The notes under the pieces: model-generated
Database searches by the model: none
Seen by the model: the letters and a program-made list of their open reading frames with translations, nothing else
Told to the model about the DNA's origin: nothing
DNA from: Acidobacteria bacterium SCN 69-37
GTDB taxonomy: Bacteria > Acidobacteriota > Vicinamibacteria > Vicinamibacterales > SCN-69-37
NCBI GenBank assembly: GCA_001724025.1
Contig: MEDJ01000002.1
Coordinates: 1-64,000 of the forward strand
Reading direction: 5' to 3'
DNA length: 64,000 nt
Shown here: in pieces, positions 3,612 to 15,237 of the stretch
Position numbering within the stretch: position 1 is the first letter of the stretch
Layout: the number at the start of each line of letters is the position of its first letter
Made by a program: the position numbers and the translations under genes

Positions 3612-4274
3612 TCAGCGCGGCGATCGCCGGACGCGCTTGGTCGGCGCGTCCGCATGGCGCCAGACCCGGAAGATCACCGTCGCCTCACCAAGTCCGATCG
3701 CGTCGCCATCGTCGAGCGCCGTCGGCCCGGCGATCGTCCGCCGATTCACGTCCGTCCCGTTCGTGCTGTCGAGATCCTCGATCACCGGCGCGTCGTCCAG
3801 ACCGGCGTCCGGCAATTGCAGGCGGGCGTGGCGACGCGACACGCCCGGCGCGTCGATCCAGACATCACAGGCTGGATCGCGGCCGATGACGCAGGTCGAT
3901 CGAACGAGCACGATCGTCCGTTCACCCCACACCAGCCAGTGACGCGGCCCGCCGCCCGGGCCCGCGCGCGGATCCAGATCGCGCGCATGGCCGTCGAAGG
4001 CATAGCCCACGCCGTGTGCCGTGCGCACGACGGTCGCGTCGCTCCCGAGCGCCGCACGGATCTCTGCGACGAGATTCCCGAGCGCCGCCGCCACGACGTG
4101 CGTGTCGGGCCACAGCTGCTGCCGCAGGGCCGTACGATCGACGACGGCGGGACGCGCCTCGACGAGCAGCACCAGCAGGTGGAATGCCTTCGGCGAGAGA
4201 TGAATCACCTCGCTGCCGCGCAGCAACTGGCGCGCGGCCCCGTCGAGGATGTGCGTGCCGAACGCGACCTTCAC
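3612..4274 (-). CDS. EmbR-like regulator: winged helix plus FHA domain
   Basis: A 220-residue cytoplasmic protein with two domains. Residues 1-95 form an OmpR/PhoB-type winged-helix DNA-binding domain (LSPKAFHLLVLLVE, RTALRQQLWPD, ending HGVGYAF). Residues about 115-205 form an FHA phosphothreonine-binding domain with the canonical GR, SRRH and STNGT triad (IGRDPACDV, VSRRHARL, LDSTNGTDVN). Mycobacterial EmbR has the same ends but a BTAD domain between them; here that middle domain is missing. It is divergently transcribed, 89 bp from the FhaA-like gene that opens the kinase/phosphatase cluster. It is therefore a good candidate for a transcription factor switched by phosphorylation from the neighbouring kinase. 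That link is inference. Confidence 0.85.
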   Translation of the reverse strand: MKVAFGTHILDGAARQLLRGSEVIHLSPKAFHLLVLLVEARPAVVDRTALRQQLWPDTHVVAAALGNLVAEIRAALGSDATVVRTAHGVGYAFDGHARDLDPRAGPGGGPRHWLVWGERTIVLVRSTCVIGRDPACDVWIDAPGVSRRHARLQLPDAGLDDAPVIEDLDSTNGTDVNRRTIAGPTALDDGDAIGLGEATVIFRVWRHADAPTKRVRRSPR

Positions 4275-4363
4275 CGCATCCCCGCGGTCGTGATGAAAAC
4301 CTTGAGAAATCGTTGCGCCTGCCTCGTCACCGTCTGAGAGATAGTAAGCGACCGGAGACCGTG

Positions 4364-5248
4364 ATGGCAGCCAGCTCCCATGACCGCGATTCCGCCGGCC
4401 CTCGTCGCCCGGCCGCCGATCTGATCACGGCGGTCATCGACAACATGCGCGAGAATCGCGAGGAACTGCGCTATTCCGTCGTCGTCCCGAGCCGCTACTC
4501 GGTCGTGTTGTCGCCCGCCGAGTTCGCGCGGCTCGAAGGGCTGGTGCCGCGGCTGCAGGCCGAGACCATCCGGGCGCTGACCGAGGAACTGGCGCGTATG
4601 AATCAGCTGTCGTGGATCGAGCGCCGTGTGGGCGCCTGGCGAGGCCGCACGCGCACGCCACTCGAGAACGCCGACACGGCGTGGCACGTCGAGTTCGTTC
4701 CCGACGTCAACGGCGATCTGGCGCACGAGGGCGACATCCTCGTGCACTCGGAACTCCGCCTGCCTGGCGAGCCGGCCCTCGGCGGGGGCGAGCGGACGCG
4801 GCGCATCAGCACCGTGCATGCGAGCGGAGCCACGCGGTCGATGCGGGTCAACGGCGAGTCCGCCGCGGTCGATCGTGGGGCCAGCACCGTCGCGATCCAT
4901 GCGCGACTGACGTACACCGACAGGACCGGCCCACACCAGTACGACATCGTCCGCGACTCGGCCACGATCGGCCGCGGCGGCACCGTTTATCCGGTCGACG
5001 TCCGGATCCACGCCTCCGAGGACGTCTCGCGCGAGCACGCCCGCATCCGTCGCGATCCGGTCACGGGTTGCTTCTTCCTGATCGATCTCAGCACGCTCGG
5101 GACCACGCTCAACGGCCGGCACGCGCCGCGCGGCTACGACGAAACCGATGGATCGAAGCGCGAGAACGGTGTCGAGTCCGAGTTGCCGCTGCGTGCGCGC
5201 ATCGGCCTGGCGGACGTCGTGTTCCTGGACTTCGAACGGATCGACTGA
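4364..5248 (+). CDS. FhaA-like protein (DUF3662-type N-terminus plus FHA)
   Basis: A 294-residue soluble protein. The N-terminal part (VPSRYSVVLSPAEFARLEGL, about residues 40-65) resembles the DUF3662 domain of mycobacterial FhaA. A C-terminal FHA domain (about 200-290) carries IGRGG, VSREHARI and STLGTTLNG. FhaA binds phosphorylated partners, including MviN, in mycobacterial wall synthesis; a similar adaptor role here is inference. ATG 4364 was chosen because CGGAGACC precedes it and upstream codons lack domain character. It is the first gene of a tight operon: the next start codon begins two bases after this stop. Confidence 0.85.
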   Translation: MAASSHDRDSAGPRRPAADLITAVIDNMRENREELRYSVVVPSRYSVVLSPAEFARLEGLVPRLQAETIRALTEELARMNQLSWIERRVGAWRGRTRTPLENADTAWHVEFVPDVNGDLAHEGDILVHSELRLPGEPALGGGERTRRISTVHASGATRSMRVNGESAAVDRGASTVAIHARLTYTDRTGPHQYDIVRDSATIGRGGTVYPVDVRIHASEDVSREHARIRRDPVTGCFFLIDLSTLGTTLNGRHAPRGYDETDGSKRENGVESELPLRARIGLADVVFLDFERID

Positions 5249-5249
5249 C

Positions 5250-5345
5250 GTGGCGGATCTGCTCTGGGCCCGCGTCGTCGTACAGATGGCCCTGGCGGCC
5301 GTGATCGCAGGGCTCGTGTGGGCCGCGTGGAGGGAGCGCGCCTGA
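5250..5345 (+). CDS. 31-residue single-span membrane peptide
   Basis: Starts at GTG 5250 one base after the FHA stop and ends one base before the PP2C start at 5347, so the frame is squeezed exactly between two operon genes. It reads VADLLWARVVVQMALA then AVIAGLVWAAWRERA: one hydrophobic helix of about 20 residues with a basic cytoplasmic end. In mycobacteria this position is held by FhaB, whose N-terminus is a similar single span followed by an FHA domain. This ORF looks like that anchor without the FHA part. It may be a real micro-protein of the complex or a remnant. No separate ribosome-binding site is obvious; translational coupling is likely. Confidence 0.6.
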   Translation: MADLLWARVVVQMALAAVIAGLVWAAWRERA

Positions 5346-5346
5346 C

Positions 5347-6996
5347 ATGGTGGCCGAACTCACCCGTCGCCTGGCATCGGGCGTCGCCACGGGCGATGTG
5401 GCGATCCGCGCGGCCGGGTTGACCGACGTGGGGCGCCAGCGTGACGTGAACGAAGATCGTCTGCACGTCGACATCGCGCGCGGCATCTTCATCGTCGTCG
5501 ATGGTGTGGGGGGCCAGGCAGCCGGCGGGCGTGCGGCCGACATCGCGCTGCGGATGCTGCGCGAGCGACTGGAACGGCAGACGGGAGCGGTGGTCGATCG
5601 CGTGCGCGAGGCGATCACGATTGCCAACAACGAGATCTTCCACCAGGCCCAGCAGCGGCCCGAGTGGCACGGCATGGCGTGCGTGCTGACGGTAGCCGTG
5701 ATCAACGAACGGCGACTCGTCATCGGGCACGTCGGCGATACGCGACTCTACGTGTTCCACGGGGGCCAGGCACGCAAGTTGACGCCGGATCACTCGCCCG
5801 TGGGCGAGCGCGAGGACGCGCGCGAACTGTCGGAGATCGAGGCGATGCGGCACCCGCGCCGCAACGAAGTGTTCCGCGACGTGGGCTCGACGGTCCATCA
5901 CCTGGCCGATCGCGAGTTCATTCATGTCGATGACGTGGCCTTTCCCGACGATGCGGCGCTGTTGATCTGCAGTGACGGGCTCACGGACCTCGTGCCGCTG
6001 GCAACGATCAGGCAGGCCGTGGAGACCTGCAGCGGCCGGCCCGAGGCGGTCGTGCGCACGCTCGTGCAGGCGGCGAACGATGCGGGCGGCAAGGACAACG
6101 TCACGGTCGTGTACGCGGAGGGCGTGCGGTTCGCGACGAGAGCCGCTGTCGATCCGGCTCGCGGTCCTGTGCCGGCGGTGCGGGATCGGCGATCGTCCAG
6201 CGGCGTCTGGAAGGGCTTTTTTGCGGGACTCCTGATCGCGGCGGGACTTGGCGGCTGGTGGGCCTGGCACGAGGGATTGATCGGACGCGACCTGGTGGTC
6301 GGCACGATCGCCCCGGCCCCGCAGGCCGGCGCCATCGTCGTGCGCGCGGGCGAGTCGATTGCCGAGGCGATTGCGCGCGCGGAGCCGGGCTTCTCGATCG
6401 TCGTGGAACCCGGCGAGTATCGCGAGCGTCTGACGCTCAGGGATCATGTGCGGGTCATCAGTCGCGTGCCGCGTGGTGTCACACTGCGGCGTCCATCCGA
6501 ATCCATTGCTGACGACGCCGTGGTGACGGCCGTGGGCGTGATGGGCGCCGAGCTGTCGGGCTTCCGCATCGTGGGCGACGATGCGGCGCCGCTCGACGTG
6601 GGCGTGCTTACGCGTGACGGCAGCACGCGGCTCGTCGATCTCGAGATCTCGGGAGCGCGCACCGCGGCCGTGGCGTTCGGGCCGGGAGACGACGTGCTGG
6701 TGGCGAGTGACATCCGCGACAACCCGGGCGCGGCGATCGTGGCGGCGCCCGGCGCATCGCCGCGCATCGCGCACAACCGGTTCGCCCGCAACGGCACGCT
6801 GGCGACCGCACCGTTCGCGTTCGAGCCCGGCGCCGTCCCGCAGATCAGCGGCAACGTGTTCCAGGGCATCCAGGCCCGCACATTGGCCGGACTCGGAGAC
6901 GAGACGATGCAGGCGCTGCCCGCCGACAACGTGTTCATCGAGCCGCGGCCGGCCGCGTCCAGCGCGCGGCCTTCACCCGCGCCCCGGAGCCGTTGA
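5347..6996 (+). CDS. PP2C-family Ser/Thr phosphatase with external beta-helix domain
   Basis: A 549-residue membrane phosphatase expected to reverse the kinase encoded next door. Residues 1-270 are a PPM/PP2C catalytic domain with the metal-binding motifs QRDVNEDR, VVDGVGGQ, GHVGDTRLY, CSDGLTD and GKDNVTVV. One membrane span follows at about 288-306 (FFAGLLIAAGLGGWWAWH). Residues about 325-535 are a non-cytoplasmic right-handed beta-helix-like region with repeated 'V-x-x-G-x-Y' and 'D-N-x-x-x-x-I' turns (pectate-lyase/NosD style). Mycobacterial PstP has only a short external tail, so this sensor-like domain is distinctive. The stop overlaps the upstream codons of the kinase gene, showing tight operon organisation. 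Confidence 0.9.
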   Translation: MVAELTRRLASGVATGDVAIRAAGLTDVGRQRDVNEDRLHVDIARGIFIVVDGVGGQAAGGRAADIALRMLRERLERQTGAVVDRVREAITIANNEIFHQAQQRPEWHGMACVLTVAVINERRLVIGHVGDTRLYVFHGGQARKLTPDHSPVGEREDARELSEIEAMRHPRRNEVFRDVGSTVHHLADREFIHVDDVAFPDDAALLICSDGLTDLVPLATIRQAVETCSGRPEAVVRTLVQAANDAGGKDNVTVVYAEGVRFATRAAVDPARGPVPAVRDRRSSSGVWKGFFAGLLIAAGLGGWWAWHEGLIGRDLVVGTIAPAPQAGAIVVRAGESIAEAIARAEPGFSIVVEPGEYRERLTLRDHVRVISRVPRGVTLRRPSESIADDAVVTAVGVMGAELSGFRIVGDDAAPLDVGVLTRDGSTRLVDLEISGARTAAVAFGPGDDVLVASDIRDNPGAAIVAAPGASPRIAHNRFARNGTLATAPFAFEPGAVPQISGNVFQGIQARTLAGLGDETMQALPADNVFIEPRPAASSARPSPAPRSR

Positions 6997-6998
6997 CG

Positions 6999-8981
6999 AT
7001 GGTGACGTTCGGTCCAGTGGGTCCGTACGACATCGTGCGCCAGATCGGTCGAGGCATGAGCCCCGTGTACCTGGCCACCGATCGCCGCAATGGGACGTCC
7101 GTCGCGTTGAAGGTCGTACCCGTCGGATCCGACGAGGACGCGCGCGAACTGCTCGAGGCCGAGCAGCAGGGCGCCGATCTGCAGCGGCGTTTCTCGGATC
7201 TCACGGAGTACGTCCCGCGCGTGTTCGAGGTCGGTCGCGACGCCGACGACTTCTACATCGCGATGGAATATGTCGACGGTGAGGATCTGTCGGTAATCCT
7301 CGCGCGCGGTCCGATCGCGCCGCCGCGCGCCGTGGCGATTGCGACAGAGCTCTGCCGGTTCCTCGAGGAAGTCGATCGCGTGGCGGGCGCGGAGGGCGAG
7401 TCGGCGCTGACGCTGCTGCACAACGACCTGAAGCCCGGCAACATCCGGATCGCGCCCGGCGATCACGTGAAGATTCTCGACTTCGGTGCGGCCAAGGTGC
7501 TGTCGCTCAGCCGGCGCGTGACGCGCAATGTCTTCGGCAGCATCCCGTATCTGTCGCCCGAGTGCATCGAGACGGGCAAGCGCGACAGGCACACGGATGC
7601 GTGGGCGCTCGGCGTGCTGCTCTACGAGATGGTGGCCGGCCGGACGCCGTTCCAGGCCGACACGACCATCAACCTCGAGCGCCGGATTCGCTCGCGTCGT
7701 CCGCCCGAGCCGGCTCCGGGGATTGGCGGCGACCTGCGGGCCGTCATCGAGAAGCTGCTCGCGCCGCACCCGGAGGAGCGATACGCGGACCCGGCCGCGA
7801 TCCGCGCCGATCTCGAGCGTCTGGCCGCTGGCGAGCCGACGATGGCCGCCGGGGAGTCGATCGAGCGGCCGACACGCCGCGTCGACGAGCCGGTGACGCG
7901 GCGGACGCGTGAACCGCTCGATCCGATCGAGCGCGATGACGAAGCGCCGACGCGCCCGGTGGCGCGACTGGCGAGCCTCGAGGACGTCACGCCTGTCGTC
8001 GATCCGATCGGTGTGGACGTGCCCGTCGATGCGTCGCTCGTCGCCTCGTCGAGACCGGCGGGTCGCGCGCGTCGCCGCCTGGTGCTGGTGCTCGTGGTGC
8101 TGATCGTCGCTCTGGTGGGGAACGAGATCCTGGTGGCTCGTCGTGCCGGACGCCTGGCCGCGACCGTGCCGCTGCAGGAATTCAGCGACGTCAACGGCTC
8201 GTGGCAGGCACACGCGCAACTGGCCGGACGCAGCTATCTCGGTTTCGCCACGTACGACCTCCGCCGCGCGCTCGTGCGACAGTCGCAGGTGCTGGCCGAT
8301 CGCGTCATCCAGAACTATCGGAGTCCCGCGCCGACGGTGCGCGAGACGCAGTGGGAATCAGCCGCTGGCGTGCTGCGGCACGCGCTCACGGCGTCGCCGG
8401 GGGACACCGGCATGCGCGCGTCGCTCCGGTACGTCGAAGGCCATCTCCACCGCATCGACGGCGAAGCCGCGAAGTCGCGCCGGCAGGCGGCGCGGGCACA
8501 GCGTGAACTGGCCGAGGCCGTCAGTGCGTTCCGCGAGGCGGCCTCGCTCCGACCCGACTGGCCCGATCCGTATCTGGGCCTGGCGCGGACGTTCATCTAC
8601 GGGATCGAGGACATCGATCGCGGCGCCGACGCGATGGCGCAGGCACAGAAGCTCGGCTACACGATCGGCGCGCGCGAGACCGCGCAACTCGGCGATGGCT
8701 ATCGCACGCGCGGCGAGACGCTGGTGCGCGCCGCCGAATCGCTGGCCGGCCTGCCGCAGGAAACGGAGTCGCTGACGCGTGCGGCCGACGCGTTCAGGAA
8801 AGCGCTGGATCTGTACTCGACCATCAGCGGCTTCGGTGACGTGCCGGCCCGCATCCGGGCGACGCAGAACCGGCTGGCGGTCATCGAACAGCGGCTGGGG
8901 CGGGCGTCGACCGACGGCGCGGCGAAGTCGCGGAACGGTGCGATCGATCGGCTGATCGACGCGATCTCGGGAGCGTTCTGA
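6999..8981 (+). CDS. Transmembrane Ser/Thr protein kinase with helical external domain
   Basis: A 660-residue PknB-type kinase. The N-lobe has IGRGMSPVYLA and the ATP-anchoring lysine K38 (VALK). The catalytic loop is HNDLKPGN with D143. The usual HRD arginine is Asn, so this is a non-RD kinase, which suggests activation without classic activation-loop phosphorylation of an RD pocket. DFG is at 161-163 and the SPE of the APE motif follows. A long Arg/Glu/Pro-rich juxtamembrane linker leads to one span at about 360-380. The external 280 residues are alpha-helical with repeat character (TPR-like). The frame is open to TTG 6993, but ATG 6999 is the likelier start. Its stop overlaps the next gene by one base (TGATG). 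Confidence 0.93.
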   Translation: MVTFGPVGPYDIVRQIGRGMSPVYLATDRRNGTSVALKVVPVGSDEDARELLEAEQQGADLQRRFSDLTEYVPRVFEVGRDADDFYIAMEYVDGEDLSVILARGPIAPPRAVAIATELCRFLEEVDRVAGAEGESALTLLHNDLKPGNIRIAPGDHVKILDFGAAKVLSLSRRVTRNVFGSIPYLSPECIETGKRDRHTDAWALGVLLYEMVAGRTPFQADTTINLERRIRSRRPPEPAPGIGGDLRAVIEKLLAPHPEERYADPAAIRADLERLAAGEPTMAAGESIERPTRRVDEPVTRRTREPLDPIERDDEAPTRPVARLASLEDVTPVVDPIGVDVPVDASLVASSRPAGRARRRLVLVLVVLIVALVGNEILVARRAGRLAATVPLQEFSDVNGSWQAHAQLAGRSYLGFATYDLRRALVRQSQVLADRVIQNYRSPAPTVRETQWESAAGVLRHALTASPGDTGMRASLRYVEGHLHRIDGEAAKSRRQAARAQRELAEAVSAFREAASLRPDWPDPYLGLARTFIYGIEDIDRGADAMAQAQKLGYTIGARETAQLGDGYRTRGETLVRAAESLAGLPQETESLTRAADAFRKALDLYSTISGFGDVPARIRATQNRLAVIEQRLGRASTDGAAKSRNGAIDRLIDAISGAF

Positions 8982-11900
8982 TGGCCGTCAGCTATACCTC
9001 TGCCCGCCAGCGCGATCGCCGGCGCACACGGGCGGCTGCGCTCCGGCTGCGGCCCGACAGGCTGCTGGTGGGCGTGGCACTCGTGTCGATCCTGCTGATC
9101 GTCACCGCGTACGTCGGCCGGATGCGCACCTTCGACGCGGGCGAGGCCGCACGTTCGACGTCGGCCATCTCTCTCGGCACTGTCGCCGACGCGGCCGCGC
9201 TCGAGCCAGCGATGAGCCTGGCCTTCGCGCAGCCGGCGGATCGCCGGCTCGTCGCCCGCGAGCTGTACGCCGCGCTGCAGGCGGCGGCGGGGACGGCGCC
9301 GGCGAACGTCGGCGCGCTGTCGGCGTTGACGGTGCGGCTCGACGCGCTCGATCGCCTGCCGCCGGGATCGGCGTTCACCGCCCGCCGCGTCGCCGCCGAA
9401 CGCGACGGGCGCACGGTCGTGCCGCTCTTCACGTCAGCCGATCTCGCGGCCATCAAGCCGGGCCTCGTCGTCCGGACGACCGATCAGTACCGACTGGTTG
9501 TCGTCATGTGCGCGCTGGCCCTCGGGCTCGCGTTCGGGGCCGTGCCACTCGTCTGGCGCGCGCGTGGCGTGGCGGGCGATCGCGTGCTGCTCGCGGCGGC
9601 CTGGCTGCTGGTCTCGCTCGGCTTCGTCGTGATGCTCAGCCGGCCGGATCCACTGCGCGACACGCTGCTCGTCGTCCGCTACACGCAGGGGGCCGTGCTC
9701 GGCATCGTGCTGTTCGCGGTGGTGTCGCTCGTCGACGTGCGACGGCTTGCGCACTTCGCGTTCAGTTATCTGCCGCTGGCCGCGGCGCTGCTGCTGGCCG
9801 TGATCCTGATGATCTTCGGTCGCGGACCGGGCACGAGCGATGCCCGCGTGAACCTGGGACCGATGCAGCCGATGGAGCCGATCCGCCTGTTGCTCGCGTG
9901 CTTCCTTGCCGGCTATTTCGCGCGCCGCTGGGAAGTGCTGCGCCAGGTGTCGGGTGCCACGTTCCGTCGCCATCGGCTGCCGGCGTGGATGGACCTGCCG
10001 CGGCCGGATCTGGTGCTGCCGGTCCTGCTCGCGATGGCCGTGGCGCTGATGCTGTTCTTCGTGCTGAAGGATCTCGGGCCGGCGTTGCTGCTCTCGCTCG
10101 TGTTCCTCGCGCTGTTTGCCGTTGCGCGGGCACGCGTGGCCATGGCGCTGGTAGGACTGGCGGTGCTCGTCAGTGGGTTCTATGTCGGGTACGCGCTCGG
10201 AATCTCGAGCACATTGTCGGCGCGCGTGGCGATGTGGTGGTCGCCCTGGGAAAACGTTGCGCGCGGCGGCGATCAGGTAGCGCAGGCGCTCTGGGGCTTT
10301 GCGAGCGGTGCGTTGTCGGGAACCGGGCTCGGTCTTGGCGCCACGCGGTACCTGCCGGCCGGGCACACGGATCTCGTGCTGGCTGCGATCGGCGAGGAAC
10401 TCGGCGCGATGGGAATGCTCACCGTCGCCGTCGCGTTCGTCGTCATCGCATGGCGTGGTCTCGCGATCGCGCGGCGGGCATCGACCGACTACGGCCTGTT
10501 CCTCGCGCTCGCGATGACCCTGACCCTCGTCGTGCCCGTGCTCGTGATGTCGGCCGGCCTGCTCGGGCTGATCCCGCTCACGGGCGTGGTCACGCCGTTC
10601 CTGAGCTACGGCGGATCGGCGATGGCCGTCAACTTCCTCGCACTGGGCCTGGTGGTGGCCTGTCGTGGCGGCCGCCAGGCATCGGTCGAGCCGACGGGCG
10701 AGGCGTTTCACGTGCCGATGCGCTGGCTGGCGCGGACGATGGCCGCGGCGGCGATCGGACTCGTCATCGTGTGGGGACGGACGCAGATCGTGTCGGCCGA
10801 CGCGCTGCTCGTCCGGCCGCAGCTCGGACGACAGGCCGATGGCGGCGTGCGCTTCCAGTACAACCCGCGCGTCCTCGACATGGCGCGCCTGCTGCCGCGC
10901 GGGACGATATTCGATCGCGCAGGCATCCCGCTCGCCACCGACGATGTGGCGGTGGCGCACACGGAAGCCGACGCGTACCGGCGACTGGGTATCGACGTCG
11001 ATCGCCTGTGTCCGCCAGCCGGCGATGCGCGGTGTTATCCGTTTGGCGGCGAGATGTTCCACCTGCTGGGCGATGCCCGAACCCGGGCGAATTGGGCAGC
11101 GTCGAACAGCTCCTATGTCGAGCGCGATGCCGAGGCGCGGCTGCGTGGGTTCGACGATCGGGCCGTGATCGTGCGGACAGGTCAGGAGGGCGAGTCCGGC
11201 GTGGCACTGCGGCGTGATTACGCGCCGCTGGTGCCGCTCGTCCGTCATCGCTGGGAGCCCGAGCATCCGGCCGTGCGCGCGGTCTTCGAGCGGCCGCGCG
11301 ACGTGCGGCTGACGATCGACGCGCGCCTGCAGCACCAGGTGTCCGTCATTCTCGCCAGAGCCGTGACGTCGGCGCGCGTCACGCGCGGTGCCGCCGTCGT
11401 CGTCGACGCCGACAGTGGGGAAGTGCTCGCCAGCGTGAGCTACCCGTGGCCGTCGACCGCGGCGGCAGATGGGCTGTCGTCCGATGCGTCGCTCGATCGC
11501 GCGCGATACGGGCTCTATCCGCCCGGGTCGACGTTCAAGGTCGTGACGGCGGCGGCCGCGCTGCGTGCGGATCCGGCACTGGCCGGTCTGTCCTTCGTGT
11601 GCGAGCGCCTGCCCGACAACCGCGCGGGCGCGCGCATCGCCGGGTATGGCCGGCCGGTCCGCGACGACGTCCGCGATCGGCATGCGCACGGATCGATCGC
11701 CATGCGCGATGGGTTCGTGCAGTCGTGCAACGCGTACTTCGCGCAGCTGGCCGTGCGGATCGGTGCCGATCGTCTGGCTGAAACGTCGGCCCTGGCCGGC
11801 ATCGCGCTGTCGTCGTCTTCCGATGCCGGTGCGCTGCGTGACACGCTGCCGTACGCCGGGTTCGGCCAGGGGCAGGTAGTGGCGTCGCCGCTGCGCCTGG

Positions 11901-12283
11901 CGCGGGTGGTGGCCGCTGTCGCGTCGGATGGCCTGATTCGCGAGGCCCCGATCGTGCGCGAGTCGGGCCAGACCGTGGCGACGTCGTTCCTGCCGCCCGG
12001 CGAGGCGCACGTGATTGCCGGGTTCATGCGGGGCGCGGTGACGGACGGCACCGGCCGTCTGCTCGCCTCGCACCCGTCGAGGATTGCCGGCAAGACCGGT
12101 ACGGCCGAACTGGAGGGCGCGCCGTCACACGCCTGGTTCGTCGGCTTCGCGCCGTACGGCGAAGCGACCCGTCGGATTGCATTTGCCGTGCTGCTCGAAC
12201 ACGGCGGCTATGGGGGCGCGTCGGCGGCAGCGGCGTCGGGACAGATTGTCACGGCCGCGGCAGCGCTCGGCCTGGTGCGGTGA
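8981..12283 (+). CDS. SEDS (FtsW/RodA) glycosyltransferase fused to class B penicillin-binding protein
   Basis: A single 1100-residue protein that joins the two halves of a peptidoglycan synthase normally encoded as partners. The first part has one span (about 28-46), an extracytoplasmic segment of about 120 residues, and a multi-span FtsW/RodA domain. That domain includes LPAGHTDLVLAAIGEELG, with the SEDS catalytic aspartate equivalent at D464, and the VTPFLSYGGSAM motif. A further span links to a class B PBP ectodomain: pedestal motif LPRGTIFDRAGIPLA, then transpeptidase motifs S850-TFK (SxxK), S915-CN (SxN) and K1038-TG. All key residues are present, so both activities are plausible. It overlaps the kinase stop by one base and the following FHA gene by four. 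Mycobacterial rodA and pbpA occupy the matching position as two genes. Confidence 0.93.
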   Translation: MAVSYTSARQRDRRRTRAAALRLRPDRLLVGVALVSILLIVTAYVGRMRTFDAGEAARSTSAISLGTVADAAALEPAMSLAFAQPADRRLVARELYAALQAAAGTAPANVGALSALTVRLDALDRLPPGSAFTARRVAAERDGRTVVPLFTSADLAAIKPGLVVRTTDQYRLVVVMCALALGLAFGAVPLVWRARGVAGDRVLLAAAWLLVSLGFVVMLSRPDPLRDTLLVVRYTQGAVLGIVLFAVVSLVDVRRLAHFAFSYLPLAAALLLAVILMIFGRGPGTSDARVNLGPMQPMEPIRLLLACFLAGYFARRWEVLRQVSGATFRRHRLPAWMDLPRPDLVLPVLLAMAVALMLFFVLKDLGPALLLSLVFLALFAVARARVAMALVGLAVLVSGFYVGYALGISSTLSARVAMWWSPWENVARGGDQVAQALWGFASGALSGTGLGLGATRYLPAGHTDLVLAAIGEELGAMGMLTVAVAFVVIAWRGLAIARRASTDYGLFLALAMTLTLVVPVLVMSAGLLGLIPLTGVVTPFLSYGGSAMAVNFLALGLVVACRGGRQASVEPTGEAFHVPMRWLARTMAAAAIGLVIVWGRTQIVSADALLVRPQLGRQADGGVRFQYNPRVLDMARLLPRGTIFDRAGIPLATDDVAVAHTEADAYRRLGIDVDRLCPPAGDARCYPFGGEMFHLLGDARTRANWAASNSSYVERDAEARLRGFDDRAVIVRTGQEGESGVALRRDYAPLVPLVRHRWEPEHPAVRAVFERPRDVRLTIDARLQHQVSVILARAVTSARVTRGAAVVVDADSGEVLASVSYPWPSTAAADGLSSDASLDRARYGLYPPGSTFKVVTAAAALRADPALAGLSFVCERLPDNRAGARIAGYGRPVRDDVRDRHAHGSIAMRDGFVQSCNAYFAQLAVRIGADRLAETSALAGIALSSSSDAGALRDTLPYAGFGQGQVVASPLRLARVVAAVASDGLIREAPIVRESGQTVATSFLPPGEAHVIAGFMRGAVTDGTGRLLASHPSRIAGKTGTAELEGAPSHAWFVGFAPYGEATRRIAFAVLLEHGGYGGASAAAASGQIVTAAAALGLVR

Positions 12284-13110
12284 TCGTCATGCTGAAGAAG
12301 ATCAACGACGTTTTCGAGAAGGCGCGTCGGCTCGAAGCCACGATTGCGGAACGGGTCGAAGGGGCGGCGACGCGCGTGACCGGCGGGCCCGGCGCGCGCG
12401 AACCGCTGGACACCGCGCACGCGATCGTCGACCTCGTCGCCCGCGAGATCCAGGCAACCGGCCGCGGCCATCGCGGCTTTCCCTTCAACCAGGTGCGCAT
12501 CACGCTGCTCGCGCCCACGCCGCGTGCGAAGGCGCGACTGCAGGCCGTCATCGACGGTCCGGATCCGCTGCGCGATCGAATCACCTCGCGGCTGGCGACA
12601 GCCGGCTGTGACGTCGACGGACTGATGGTGACGGTGGCGTACGCGACGAAAGCGAAGGCGGACTGGGTCCAGCCGGACTTCGATGTGGAGTGCCTGCGCG
12701 TCGACGCGCGTGAGGTGCCGCTGGTCACGTCACCCGGTCACCGGCTGGGCCTTCGTGTGCTGGCGGGAGAGACCGTCAGTGCGTCGTACGATCTCGATGC
12801 GGACACGGTGACGATTGGGCGCGGCACCGAGATCGCCGATGATCGCGGCCGCCTGATTCGCGTGAACCTGATTGCGTTTACCGACGGCGCCGGCGACATC
12901 AACGCGACGGTTTCGCGCCTGCACGCGCACGTCACGCGCGAAGTCGGCGGCACCTGGCGGATCTTCGATGACGGCAGTGCGCAGGGCACGATGGTGGTGC
13001 GGCAGGGCCGCGGGCACGTGGTCTCGCAGTGGGGCCGGGGCATCGTGCTGCGGTCCGGCGACGAGATCGTGCTCGGCCGCGCGCGCCTGTCAGTGACCGC
13101 CATCGCGTGA
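12280..13110 (+). CDS. FHA-domain protein, last gene of the kinase/cell-wall cluster
   Basis: A 276-residue soluble protein. GTG 12280 overlaps the stop of the SEDS-PBP gene (GTGA); an ATG follows at 12289. The N-terminus is an amphipathic helix (MLKKINDVFEKARRLEATIA) followed by a FhaA-like alpha/beta domain (FNQVRITLLAPTPRAKARLQ). The C-terminal FHA domain has IGRGTEIADD, TVSRLHAHV and an AQGT in place of the usual NGT, so its binding loop is slightly altered. The cluster thus holds two FhaA-type adaptors flanking phosphatase, kinase and synthase. The likely role is docking to phosphothreonines made by the kinase; this is inferred from family and context. Confidence 0.82.
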   Translation: MIVMLKKINDVFEKARRLEATIAERVEGAATRVTGGPGAREPLDTAHAIVDLVAREIQATGRGHRGFPFNQVRITLLAPTPRAKARLQAVIDGPDPLRDRITSRLATAGCDVDGLMVTVAYATKAKADWVQPDFDVECLRVDAREVPLVTSPGHRLGLRVLAGETVSASYDLDADTVTIGRGTEIADDRGRLIRVNLIAFTDGAGDINATVSRLHAHVTREVGGTWRIFDDGSAQGTMVVRQGRGHVVSQWGRGIVLRSGDEIVLGRARLSVTAIA

Positions 13111-13561: not shown

Positions 13562-13647
13562 GGCGCGCGATTGTAGCAGGGGCGCGACCGGCCGACGACG
13601 ATGGACGTTCCCGCGCGGCGGTGGAATCTGGCACAGTAGGGGGCTGT

Positions 13648-15237
13648 ATGTCGAAGAGTTCGCTGACACCGGACGCCCCCGCCGTCGAGCGCCTGCGCCA
13701 CGCCATCGACGTGCTCGAGGCGGTCGTGGCCGATCGTGGCCTGATGGCCGAGCTGTCCCCCGACGACCGCACGCGCCTGATTCAGGCCGCCGGGGCCGTG
13801 CACACGCCCGACGTGCAGGCGCGGCGTCGCCTGGTGAAACGCCTGGCGAAGGAGCGGCGCGCCGAGGTCGTCAGGCGCGACGACGAGCTGCTGCACGAAA
13901 CCGGGATACGCGAGCTGCGACGCAAGCCCGTGTTCACGACGCCGAACGTGTTCGCGCCGCCCGGGTTTACGCCCGACGACCGGGCGACGGATCCGGATGA
14001 CGAGGACGAGGTGCCGCCGGCGGCGCCGGGCCCGCGTCAGGCGGCCGAGCCGCGTGGCTGTTATACGTGCAAGCAGCGGTACGAGCAGCTGCACCACTTC
14101 TACGATCAGTTGTGTCCCGCGTGTGCGGCGCTCAACTACCGGAAGCGGACCGAGCTGGCCGACCTGCGCGGTCGCGTGGCGCTCTTGACGGGCGGTCGCG
14201 TGAAGATCGGGTACCAGGCCGGCCTGAAGCTGCTGCGCTGTGGTGCGCACCTGATCGTGACCACGCGGTTCCCGCGCGATTCGGCGAAGCGGTATGCGGC
14301 CGAGCCCGATTTCGCCGACTGGGCACACAGGCTGGAGATCTTCGGCCTCGACCTGCGGCACACACCGAGCGTGGAGGCGTTCTGTGCGCACCTGATCGCC
14401 ACGCGCGACAGGCTCGACTTCATCGTCAACAACGCGTGCCAGACCGTGCGGCGCCCGCCCGACTTCTACGCCCACATGATGGCTGGCGAGACCGCGGCAG
14501 TCGACGGGATGCCGGCGCACGAGCGGGCGTTGATTGGCGCGTACGAAGGGCTGCGCGGCTATCACCTGCTGCCCGAGTCTGCCGGCGAGACGACGCTGGC
14601 CACAGCCGCGCCGTTGTCGGAGCTGGCGGGCCTGACGCACGCGGCCGAGCTCTCGCAGGTCCGGCTGCTGCCCGAGGAGCTCCGGGCGCAGCGTGACCTG
14701 TTTCCTGAAGGGCGGCTCGATCAGGATCTGCAGCAGATCGACCTGCGCGGCCGCAACTCGTGGCGGCTGCTGCTGGCCGAGGTGTCGACGGTCGAGCTGC
14801 TCGAGGTGCAGCTCGTCAATGCCGTGGCCCCCTTCGTGCTGAACGCGCGACTCAAGCCGTTGATGCTGAAGACGAGCGACCGCGACAAGCACATCGTCAA
14901 CGTCTCCGCGGTGGAGGGGCAGTTTTACCGGCGGTTCAAGACGACCCGGCACCCGCACACGAACATGGCCAAGGCCGCGTTGAACATGATGACGCGCACG
15001 GCGGCCACCGACTACTACAATGACGGCATCCACATGAACAGCGTGGACACCGGCTGGGTGACCGATGAGGATCCGGTGGAGATTGCCGCGCGCAAGACCG
15101 CCGAGCACCGGTTCCACCCGCCGCTCGACATCGTCGACGGTGCGGCGCGGATCGTCGATCCGATCATCGACGGGTTCAACACCGGCGTGCACGTGTGGGG
15201 ACAGTTCCTGAAGGACTATCGGAAGGCCGATTGGTAG
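13648..15237 (+). CDS. SDR-fold oxidoreductase with inserted zinc ribbon
   Basis: A 529-residue protein. Residues 1-130 are a charged helical region; then comes a four-cysteine zinc ribbon, C138-x2-C141 and C156-x2-C159. A Rossmann SDR domain follows with TGGRVKIG (the TGxxxGIG cofactor motif, about 179-187) and NNACQT (NNAG equivalent). A central insertion of over 100 residues separates this from the C-terminal half. The active-site Ser is in NVSAVEGQF, but the position of the catalytic Tyr is Thr438 (T-N-M-A-K442), so the classical YxxxK pair is incomplete. ATG 13648 follows AGGGGG. Either the chemistry is changed or it binds rather than reduces its ligand; the substrate is unknown. Confidence 0.8.

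Follow-up and report, generated by a model that had tools for sequence, protein, structure and literature searches.

Conservation, ancestry and proposed function of an FHA, kinase, phosphatase and SEDS::PBP fusion locus in Acidobacteriota

Introduction

Why should an acidobacterium carry, side by side, the parts from which mycobacteria build a phosphothreonine-controlled locus for cell wall growth, and do the two sets share ancestry? The question is raised by a stretch of 64,000 nucleotides from Acidobacteria bacterium SCN 69-37 (contig MEDJ01000002.1, positions 1 to 64,000), hereafter the window, in which seven genes occupy positions 3612-13110. They encode a divergent winged helix-FHA regulator (W), an FhaA-like protein, a membrane micro-ORF, a PP2C phosphatase, a Ser/Thr kinase, a fusion of a SEDS protein with a penicillin-binding protein (SEDS::PBP) and a second FHA protein (F3). 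An earlier note, made from the sequence alone, had taken them for a mycobacterial-style module in a probable acidobacterium. The gene set is a real, conserved and patchily distributed module, more than a product of chance, and it is a variant of the known fhaA-rodA-pbpA type of locus, not a new kind. At a probability of approximately 0.6, we read it as an accessory acidobacterial growth-control operon, which would have its FhaA-type readers and RodA/PbpA-type synthase in common with the Gram-positive loci.

Linkage of pstP, rodA, pbpA and a PASTA kinase gene has been described throughout Actinobacteria, and that of pknB and fhaA in a subset of Firmicutes (PMC6554272, excerpt). Among the matches listed in a search of the open-access literature (titles and beginnings of abstracts), no description was found of an acidobacterial FhaA/RodA/PbpA/kinase module or of natural fusions between SEDS and class B PBP (bPBP).

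Recurrence and distribution of the gene set

Eleven loci were fetched from relatives, and all nine that span far enough to show the FhaA-like, PP2C, kinase and fusion genes have them in the order of the window. In these same-order loci the operon proteins are 32-47% identical to those of the window and W is 46-53% identical. F3 follows the fusion in 10/11 fetched loci, in L037 as a gene truncated at the contig end; in L038 no F3 was found in the 5 kb examined after the fusion. The divergent W is present in 5/9, and also in L051. A scan of named bacterial genomes, comprising 80 loci among the matches listed and not a census, added the same set in at least five loci of Acidobacteriota metagenome-assembled genomes (MAGs) with enough flank (L045, L046, L048, L051, L052) and partial sets in two others (L049 and L053). 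Among the matches listed, PP2C, kinase and fusion genes are adjacent in 9/9 same-order loci and in 5/5 named MAG loci with enough flank, and the named full-length fusion homologues come mostly from Acidobacteriota MAGs. The latter, like the nesting of the host's other SEDS proteins in acidobacterial clades (see below), agrees with the suspected acidobacterial origin of the window, and the recurrent set supports the proposal that the shared parts form a phosphothreonine and peptidoglycan synthase module. An acidobacterial-type fusion and F3 were also seen in a MAG contig labelled Rhodothermales (L047), possibly through transfer or mis-binning.

Among 60 relatives the fusion is nearly full length in 10, and G054 has its C-terminal part at a contig end. 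Within the host's own family the operon fusion occurs in 1/14 genomes, that is, in 0/13 besides the host. When the host is included, fragments are counted and the top 2-3 candidates are scored per genome (E <= 1e-100), it is found in 29/193 genomes and 18/104 genera of the class, and in 11/396 genomes and 8/210 genera of a phylum sample.

In the same-genus genome G001 (L279, G001:C8 6668-9468) the two neighbours of the operon lie approximately 0.7 kb apart and the operon is absent. The left, Dps-like neighbour and the right one (window 13621-15237) are both 74% identical between the two genomes, and beyond the right neighbour G001 keeps the gene order of the right flank, with other differences. 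Since G001 has the same flanks without the operon, either a gain or a loss of the operon must have taken place at this site within the genus. Read by eye, the sequence between the neighbours in L279 looks like an HD-type hydrolase; the search for an operon remnant at this site gave a best E of 0.018, which is unconvincing. GC content is 0.69-0.71 in the operon genes and 0.69 in the whole window, and as it is flat along the window, composition gives no sign of recent foreign origin. Flat GC and absence from the congener are equally compatible with a loss and with a gain that is old or has been ameliorated, and transfer is possible.

The SEDS::PBP fusion and its ancestry

The fusion gene (8981-12283, plus strand) encodes 1100 amino acids (aa) with FTSW_RODA_SPOVE (2.5e-51) and Transpeptidase (1.5e-31) domains. 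It is one of three SEDS genes of the host genome. The two stand-alone proteins nest in two acidobacterial clades of a 103-row SEDS tree and, by their place in it and their neighbours, are labelled FtsW-like (L001) and RodA-like with an adjoining PBP gene (L002). In this tree 39 housekeeping rows, among them both of the host's, are split off by a branch with 100/100 support; three rows that the search had labelled housekeeping proved to be operon RodAs fetched a second time, and they group with the operon sequences. One clade of fusion SEDS with the acidobacterial FtsW-like rows (host included) is rejected (4.2e-7), as is one with the acidobacterial RodA-like rows (1.6e-8); one with the operon RodA rows of Actinobacteria and Coriobacteriia is not (0.213). 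Similarly, a 42-row PBP tree sets the fusion PBPs and the Gram-positive operon PBPs apart from 12 housekeeping PBPs (100/99), and clades with acidobacterial FtsI-like (2.2e-5) or PBP2-like rows (0.0285) are rejected; a larger, 92-row PBP tree has a weak backbone. The best match of the PBP part in a PDB sequence search is PbpA (3un7). Judged by their sequences, then, the SEDS and PBP parts belong with the Gram-positive operon RodA/PbpA and not with the acidobacterial housekeeping enzymes, and their trees give no hint of unrelated recent origins.

Ahead of the SEDS core the fusion has an extra N-terminal helix and an extracytoplasmic segment of approximately 100 aa. Helices 25-58 and 167-195 were taken from a predicted model whose confidence (mean pLDDT 65.7) led us to use it for helix positions alone. 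The residues H462-T-D464, S850xxK853, S915-C-N and K1038-T-G are invariant in 10/10 fusions, D464 being presumably the SEDS catalytic Asp. The E. coli RodA D262A mutant is reported to be inactive (PMC6207328, excerpt). The catalytic residues of both parts being intact, the fusion is a natural single-chain synthase that is predicted to be active.

Natural SEDS::PBP fusions are found also in seven Coriobacteriia/Actinomycetota loci (L054-L059, L061). A single origin of all the fusions is rejected (approximately unbiased test, p-AU 0.00089) with 12 acidobacterial operon rows, L047, L050 and the seven coriobacterial rows included and L182 left out. SEDS::PBP fusion therefore arose at least twice. 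L050 itself, from a Chthonomonadales (Armatimonadota) MAG, is a fusion of 1135 aa, around which 21 kb gave no match to an FHA protein, PP2C or kinase of the operon type. In the gp3 acidobacterial MAG from which L048 comes (G433), SEDS was matched twice, in reading frames of 1129 and 1189 aa, which suggests two copies of the fusion.

FHA proteins

The FhaA-like gene (4364-5248, plus strand) encodes an FhaA_N domain, a linker and an FHA domain. Both domains were recovered in 18/18 homologues, FhaA_N at E <= 0.1 (best 3e-6); the protein of the window scores 24.8 bits for FhaA_N, 0.2 bits below the Pfam cut-off of 25. F3 (12280-13110, plus strand; FHA 4.6e-7) is a second protein of this type, with an FhaA_N-like domain followed by FHA. 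Pfam FhaA_N was matched in 3/16 F3 homologues (best 0.0072), the F3 of the window not among them. In hhalign comparisons with a profile of 38 N-terminal domains from Gram-positive operon FhaA-type ORFs, the FhaA-like N-domain reaches 94.0% (E 1.3e-7) and that of F3 95.2% (E 2.5e-8), two unrelated control profiles scoring 0.1%; compared directly, the N-domains of the two proteins gave no match (0.6%). The predicted structure of F3 has a pLDDT of 88, and its FHA half matches FHA structures at Z ~13-16. An FhaB-like identity of F3 was considered and ruled out, as its N-half matches FhaA_N. From these profile matches, both FHA proteins are assigned an FhaA-type N-domain.

W (3612-4274, minus strand) combines an OmpR/CadC-type winged helix with FHA. 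Its Pfam matches are Trans_reg_C (6.9e-12), FHA (9.2e-17) and an overlapping Yop-YscD_cpl only, and the FHA residues G131-R, S146-R-x-H149 and N172-G are invariant in 6/6 aligned W proteins. The label EmbR-like, which had been proposed for W, is loose. The winged helix and FHA are common to W and M. tuberculosis EmbR, whereas BTAD is unmatched in W, which is divergent to a wall operon.

PP2C and kinase

The PP2C gene (5347-6996, plus strand) and the kinase gene (6999-8981, plus strand; Pkinase 1.6e-33) encode membrane proteins. Both sequences show a membrane span and, in addition, a C-terminal part, which in PP2C is extracytoplasmic. The PP2C domain is present in 18/18 homologues, DUF1565 in 12/18 and Beta_helix in 11/18. 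Residues D37, D52, D210 and D250, which we take to be metal ligands, are invariant in 10/10 aligned homologues, as are K38, E55, H141, D143, K145 and D161-F-G in 10/10 kinases. PASTA was sought in the window kinase up to E 0.1 with no match. The PP2C homologues form a clade of their own (99/97), and grouping them with PstP (p-AU 0.427) or with acidobacterial PP2Cs (0.466) is rejected in neither case. The kinase homologues form a 100/99 clade outside that of PknA/PknB, and grouping with the latter is not rejected (0.272).

Micro-ORF and layout of the locus

The micro-ORF (5250-5345, plus strand) has a GTG start and 31 aa with one hydrophobic span. It is present at 16/18 FhaA/PP2C junctions examined, with 29-33 aa (45 aa in L180); in L034 and L181 it is absent and FhaA runs directly into PP2C. 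In 15 relatives there is an overlap of 1 or 4 bp between its start and the FhaA stop; in the window a gap of 1 bp separates the two. The ratio of nonsynonymous to synonymous change (pN/pS) is 0.30-0.62 in 7/7 close pairs measured. Such conservation identifies the predicted product as a real membrane microprotein, as the single-span ORF had been presented before.

The micro-ORF occupies the slot of fhaB in Actinobacteria, and an FHA domain is absent from it. The micro-ORFs were compared with a profile built from 43 FhaB N-termini. With unscored sequences set to -20, a floor that masks a difference, 11 micro-ORFs gave a mean of 2.2 bits against 1.1 +/- 1.3 bits for shuffles. With milder floors, 3/500 and 0/500 plainly shuffled sets reached the score of the micro-ORF set, and when 16 micro-ORFs were used and shuffling preserved the hydrophobic/polar pattern, the corresponding numbers were 12 and 6 in 500; as the rows are related by descent, these fractions are not clean probabilities. 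Nine of 120 control membrane segments score at least as high as the median micro-ORF, hhalign against the FhaB anchor gives 30% with 16 sequences and 4% with 11, and the window micro-ORF alone scores 0.1 bits. These weak scores are no more than suggestive of descent from the FhaB membrane anchor.

All seven genes were verified with their domains and tight packing, and the gene order described before stands. FhaA/micro-ORF and micro-ORF/PP2C are each separated by 1 bp, PP2C and kinase by 2 bp (or they overlap by 4 bp if TTG at 6993 is the kinase start), kinase and fusion overlap by 1 bp, and fusion and F3 by 4 bp. The 89-bp region between the divergent W and FhaA-like genes (4275-4363) is the presumed promoter/operator. 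Its length is 87-92 bp in 4/5 same-order relatives with W and 230 bp in L042, and alignment of the regions revealed short invariant blocks, e.g., around ATAGTA, possibly a shared promoter or W operator. A sigma-70 consensus was sought in this region with no match. Within the 64-kb window there is no Rfam match at gathering scores and no tRNA. Just upstream of the Dps-like gene, positions 2780-2960 resemble, by eye, the 3' fragment of a short-chain dehydrogenase gene.

A T-x-R motif in three families

T-x-R is the only conserved spaced residue pair that occurs in the linkers of three of the six families. T-x-R-[VI] is found at one fixed site of the FhaA linker in 10/10 proteins (T145-R-R-I in the window; L040 and L042 have a second elsewhere), in the C-terminal tail of W in 5/6 (T212-x-R-V in the window), and after the kinase domain in 6/10, or 9/10 with Thr at +3 (juxtamembrane T292-R-R-V in the window). 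It also occurs in PP2C (four proteins), the fusion (three) and F3 (three), where the positions differ. In further loci the motif is present in 4/8 FhaA (5/8 with Thr at +3) and 1/1 W; among their kinases, 4/8 have T-x-R-[VIT] in the juxtamembrane segment. In the Gram-positive counterparts T-x-R-[VI] is not above chance: 45 FhaA-type ORFs gave 5 matches where 9.9 were expected, and 77 kinase segments gave 3 where 5.7 were expected (9/77 with Thr at +3). The +3 residue preference of FHA domains is debated (PMC4037201, excerpt). We regard T-x-R in the kinase, FhaA and W linkers as a candidate phospho-epitope.

Comparison with known systems

Like the actinobacterial fhaA-fhaB-pstP-rodA-pbpA-pknA-pknB locus, the tightly packed acidobacterial set begins with an FhaA_N-FHA protein followed later by PP2C, and both have a RodA-type SEDS followed by a PbpA-type PBP, and a Ser/Thr kinase. 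The order, however, is PP2C-kinase-SEDS::PBP-FhaA type instead of pstP-rodA-pbpA-kinase, SEDS and PBP are fused, and a second FhaA-type protein stands at the end. In addition, a micro-ORF takes the fhaB slot and a complete FhaB was not found, the kinase has a TPR-like signal and no PASTA match, most PP2C homologues have a beta-helix-type ectodomain, and part of the loci have the divergent winged helix-FHA gene. The mycobacterial kinship claimed before thus holds as common descent of the FhaA N-domain, SEDS and PBP, and does not extend to gene order, PASTA or a complete FhaB; PP2C and kinase are not assigned by p-AU to PstP/PknB or, for PP2C, to acidobacterial paralogues.

The coriobacterial loci also have the fusion beside PP2C and kinase, and FHA upstream in 6/7 (L054 is cut at its start). 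They differ in their FHA-FHA-PP2C-fusion-kinase order, which is that of Actinobacteria, in an extra upstream kinase (L055, L056, L061) and in a shorter fusion (910-978 aa) of separate origin. The PpkA/PppA/Fha phospho-switch of type VI secretion likewise groups a kinase, a PP2C and an FHA protein, whereas the output here is a peptidoglycan synthase; against the type VI TagH FHA model, the FhaA-like protein scores 16 bits, with the cut-off at 120.25. An engineered E. coli RodA-linker-PBP2 showed activity and for the most part rescued rod shape (PMC6207328, excerpt). Both are single-chain polymerase-transpeptidases; the one described here is natural and conserved and has the extra N-terminal segment.

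Proposed function and alternatives

The locus likely encodes an accessory, phosphothreonine-controlled single-chain peptidoglycan synthase, a function predicted from its parts. The kinase, by its TPR-like ectodomain, and PP2C, by its beta-helix-type and plausibly glycan-binding one, would read the state of the envelope and set the phosphorylation of T-x-R-[VIT] sites in the kinase juxtamembrane segment, the FhaA linker and the W tail. The FHA domains of FhaA and F3 would bind these sites, gathering kinase and synthase at growth sites through a putative contact with the fusion, and this would raise or restrain the synthase. W may sense the same mark, in cis or from partners, and adjust operon transcription. 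The fusion would fix polymerase and transpeptidase at 1:1, so that a regulator would control both reactions together, and would work beside the FtsW-like and RodA-like proteins of the host as a third, probably dispensable synthase. Kinase activity and FHA-fusion binding are predictions in this scheme. In known systems, StkP juxtamembrane phosphorylation helps to recruit division proteins (PMC12077195, excerpt) and mycobacterial FhaA affects the localization of wall synthesis (PMC11898655, excerpt).

Several observations weigh against the growth-control reading. T-x-R-[VI] is missing in 4/18 FhaA, 1/7 W (L043) and several kinases, and the linkers were delimited by hand after the motif had been noticed. 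W is limited to 5/9 same-order loci. Two genomes depart from the arrangement, one (G107, L181) with two divergent kinases flanking the fusion, followed by F3-FhaA-PP2C, the other (G114, L182) with PP2C and fusion adjacent and no FhaA, kinase or F3 beside them. The PP2C of the window itself gives neither a DUF1565 nor a Beta_helix match, and TPR_2 in the ectodomain of the window kinase (3.8e-4, 20.8 bits) is below the Pfam cut-off of 27. The kinase is non-RD (catalytic loop H141-N-D143), and in 5/10 kinases, forming one lineage (L037, L040, L041, L042, L043), the catalytic-loop Asn is replaced by His (H-x-D-L-K-P-x-H); the window keeps Asn. Kinases with this replacement are possibly atypical or weakened.

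Of the alternatives, the one that survives best, unlikely as we hold it to be, is a back-up for envelope stress or antibiotic tolerance, in which phosphosignalling would serve chiefly to switch on a spare peptidoglycan synthase once the housekeeping enzymes are blocked, be it by wall damage or by a beta-lactam. Accessory, patchy occurrence (29/193 class genomes, absence at the colinear congener site), the host's two other SEDS genes and a divergent DNA-binding FHA regulator suited to inducible expression are all in keeping with it, whereas the PBP is unlike known low-affinity PBP (23 bits against the MecA model, cut-off 750) and the search for beta-lactamase and stress genes covers Pfam scans of the near flanks only. 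It is improbable that kinase, PP2C and FHA proteins regulate other processes with the synthase as a co-transcribed passenger. Mycobacterial PstP does act on several phosphoproteins (PMC6554272, excerpt), and in the rearranged G107 locus different kinases adjoin the fusion, but the PP2C-kinase-fusion adjacency kept in 9/9 same-order and at least five named MAG loci, and the FhaA-type readers at both ends of the set, speak against this reading. Convergence, the assembly of common parts with no ancestry shared with the actinobacterial locus, is already disfavoured and very improbable: kinase, PP2C, FHA, SEDS and PBP are abundant, the gene order differs, the p-AU values for PP2C and kinase are permissive and the fusion arose separately from that of Coriobacteriia, yet the FhaA N-domain is shared (hhalign; FhaA_N in 18/18 at E <= 0.1) and SEDS and PBP group with the Gram-positive operon types, apart from the acidobacterial housekeeping paralogues.

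The growth-control reading can be taken further, tentatively and at somewhat less than even odds, to a self-contained and portable phosphothreonine device with a private epitope. The kinase would mark T-x-R-[VIT] sites in its own sequence, in W and in a scaffold of the FhaA type, two FhaA-type proteins would read the mark, a glycan-sensing beta-helix phosphatase would erase it, the peptide of approximately 31 aa, perhaps an FhaB leftover, would be a built-in subunit, and SEDS::PBP would be the output.

Significance

If the portable device is real, diderms would possess a kind of growth control that has been considered characteristic of Actinobacteria, in which other sensing stands in for PASTA and the fusion has evolved at least twice. 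The growth-control reading would extend a control circuit of mycobacterial growth to a diderm phylum, with polymerase and crosslinker in one protein; stoichiometry and partner recruitment would therefore no longer confound tests of the phospho-control of a SEDS-bPBP synthase. For such tests the shared T-x-R site offers concrete residues for mutation, and presence and absence in congeners offer a natural comparison. The existence of two independent natural fusions, in Acidobacteriota and Coriobacteriia, is an argument from evolution that RodA and its PBP work as a single machine.

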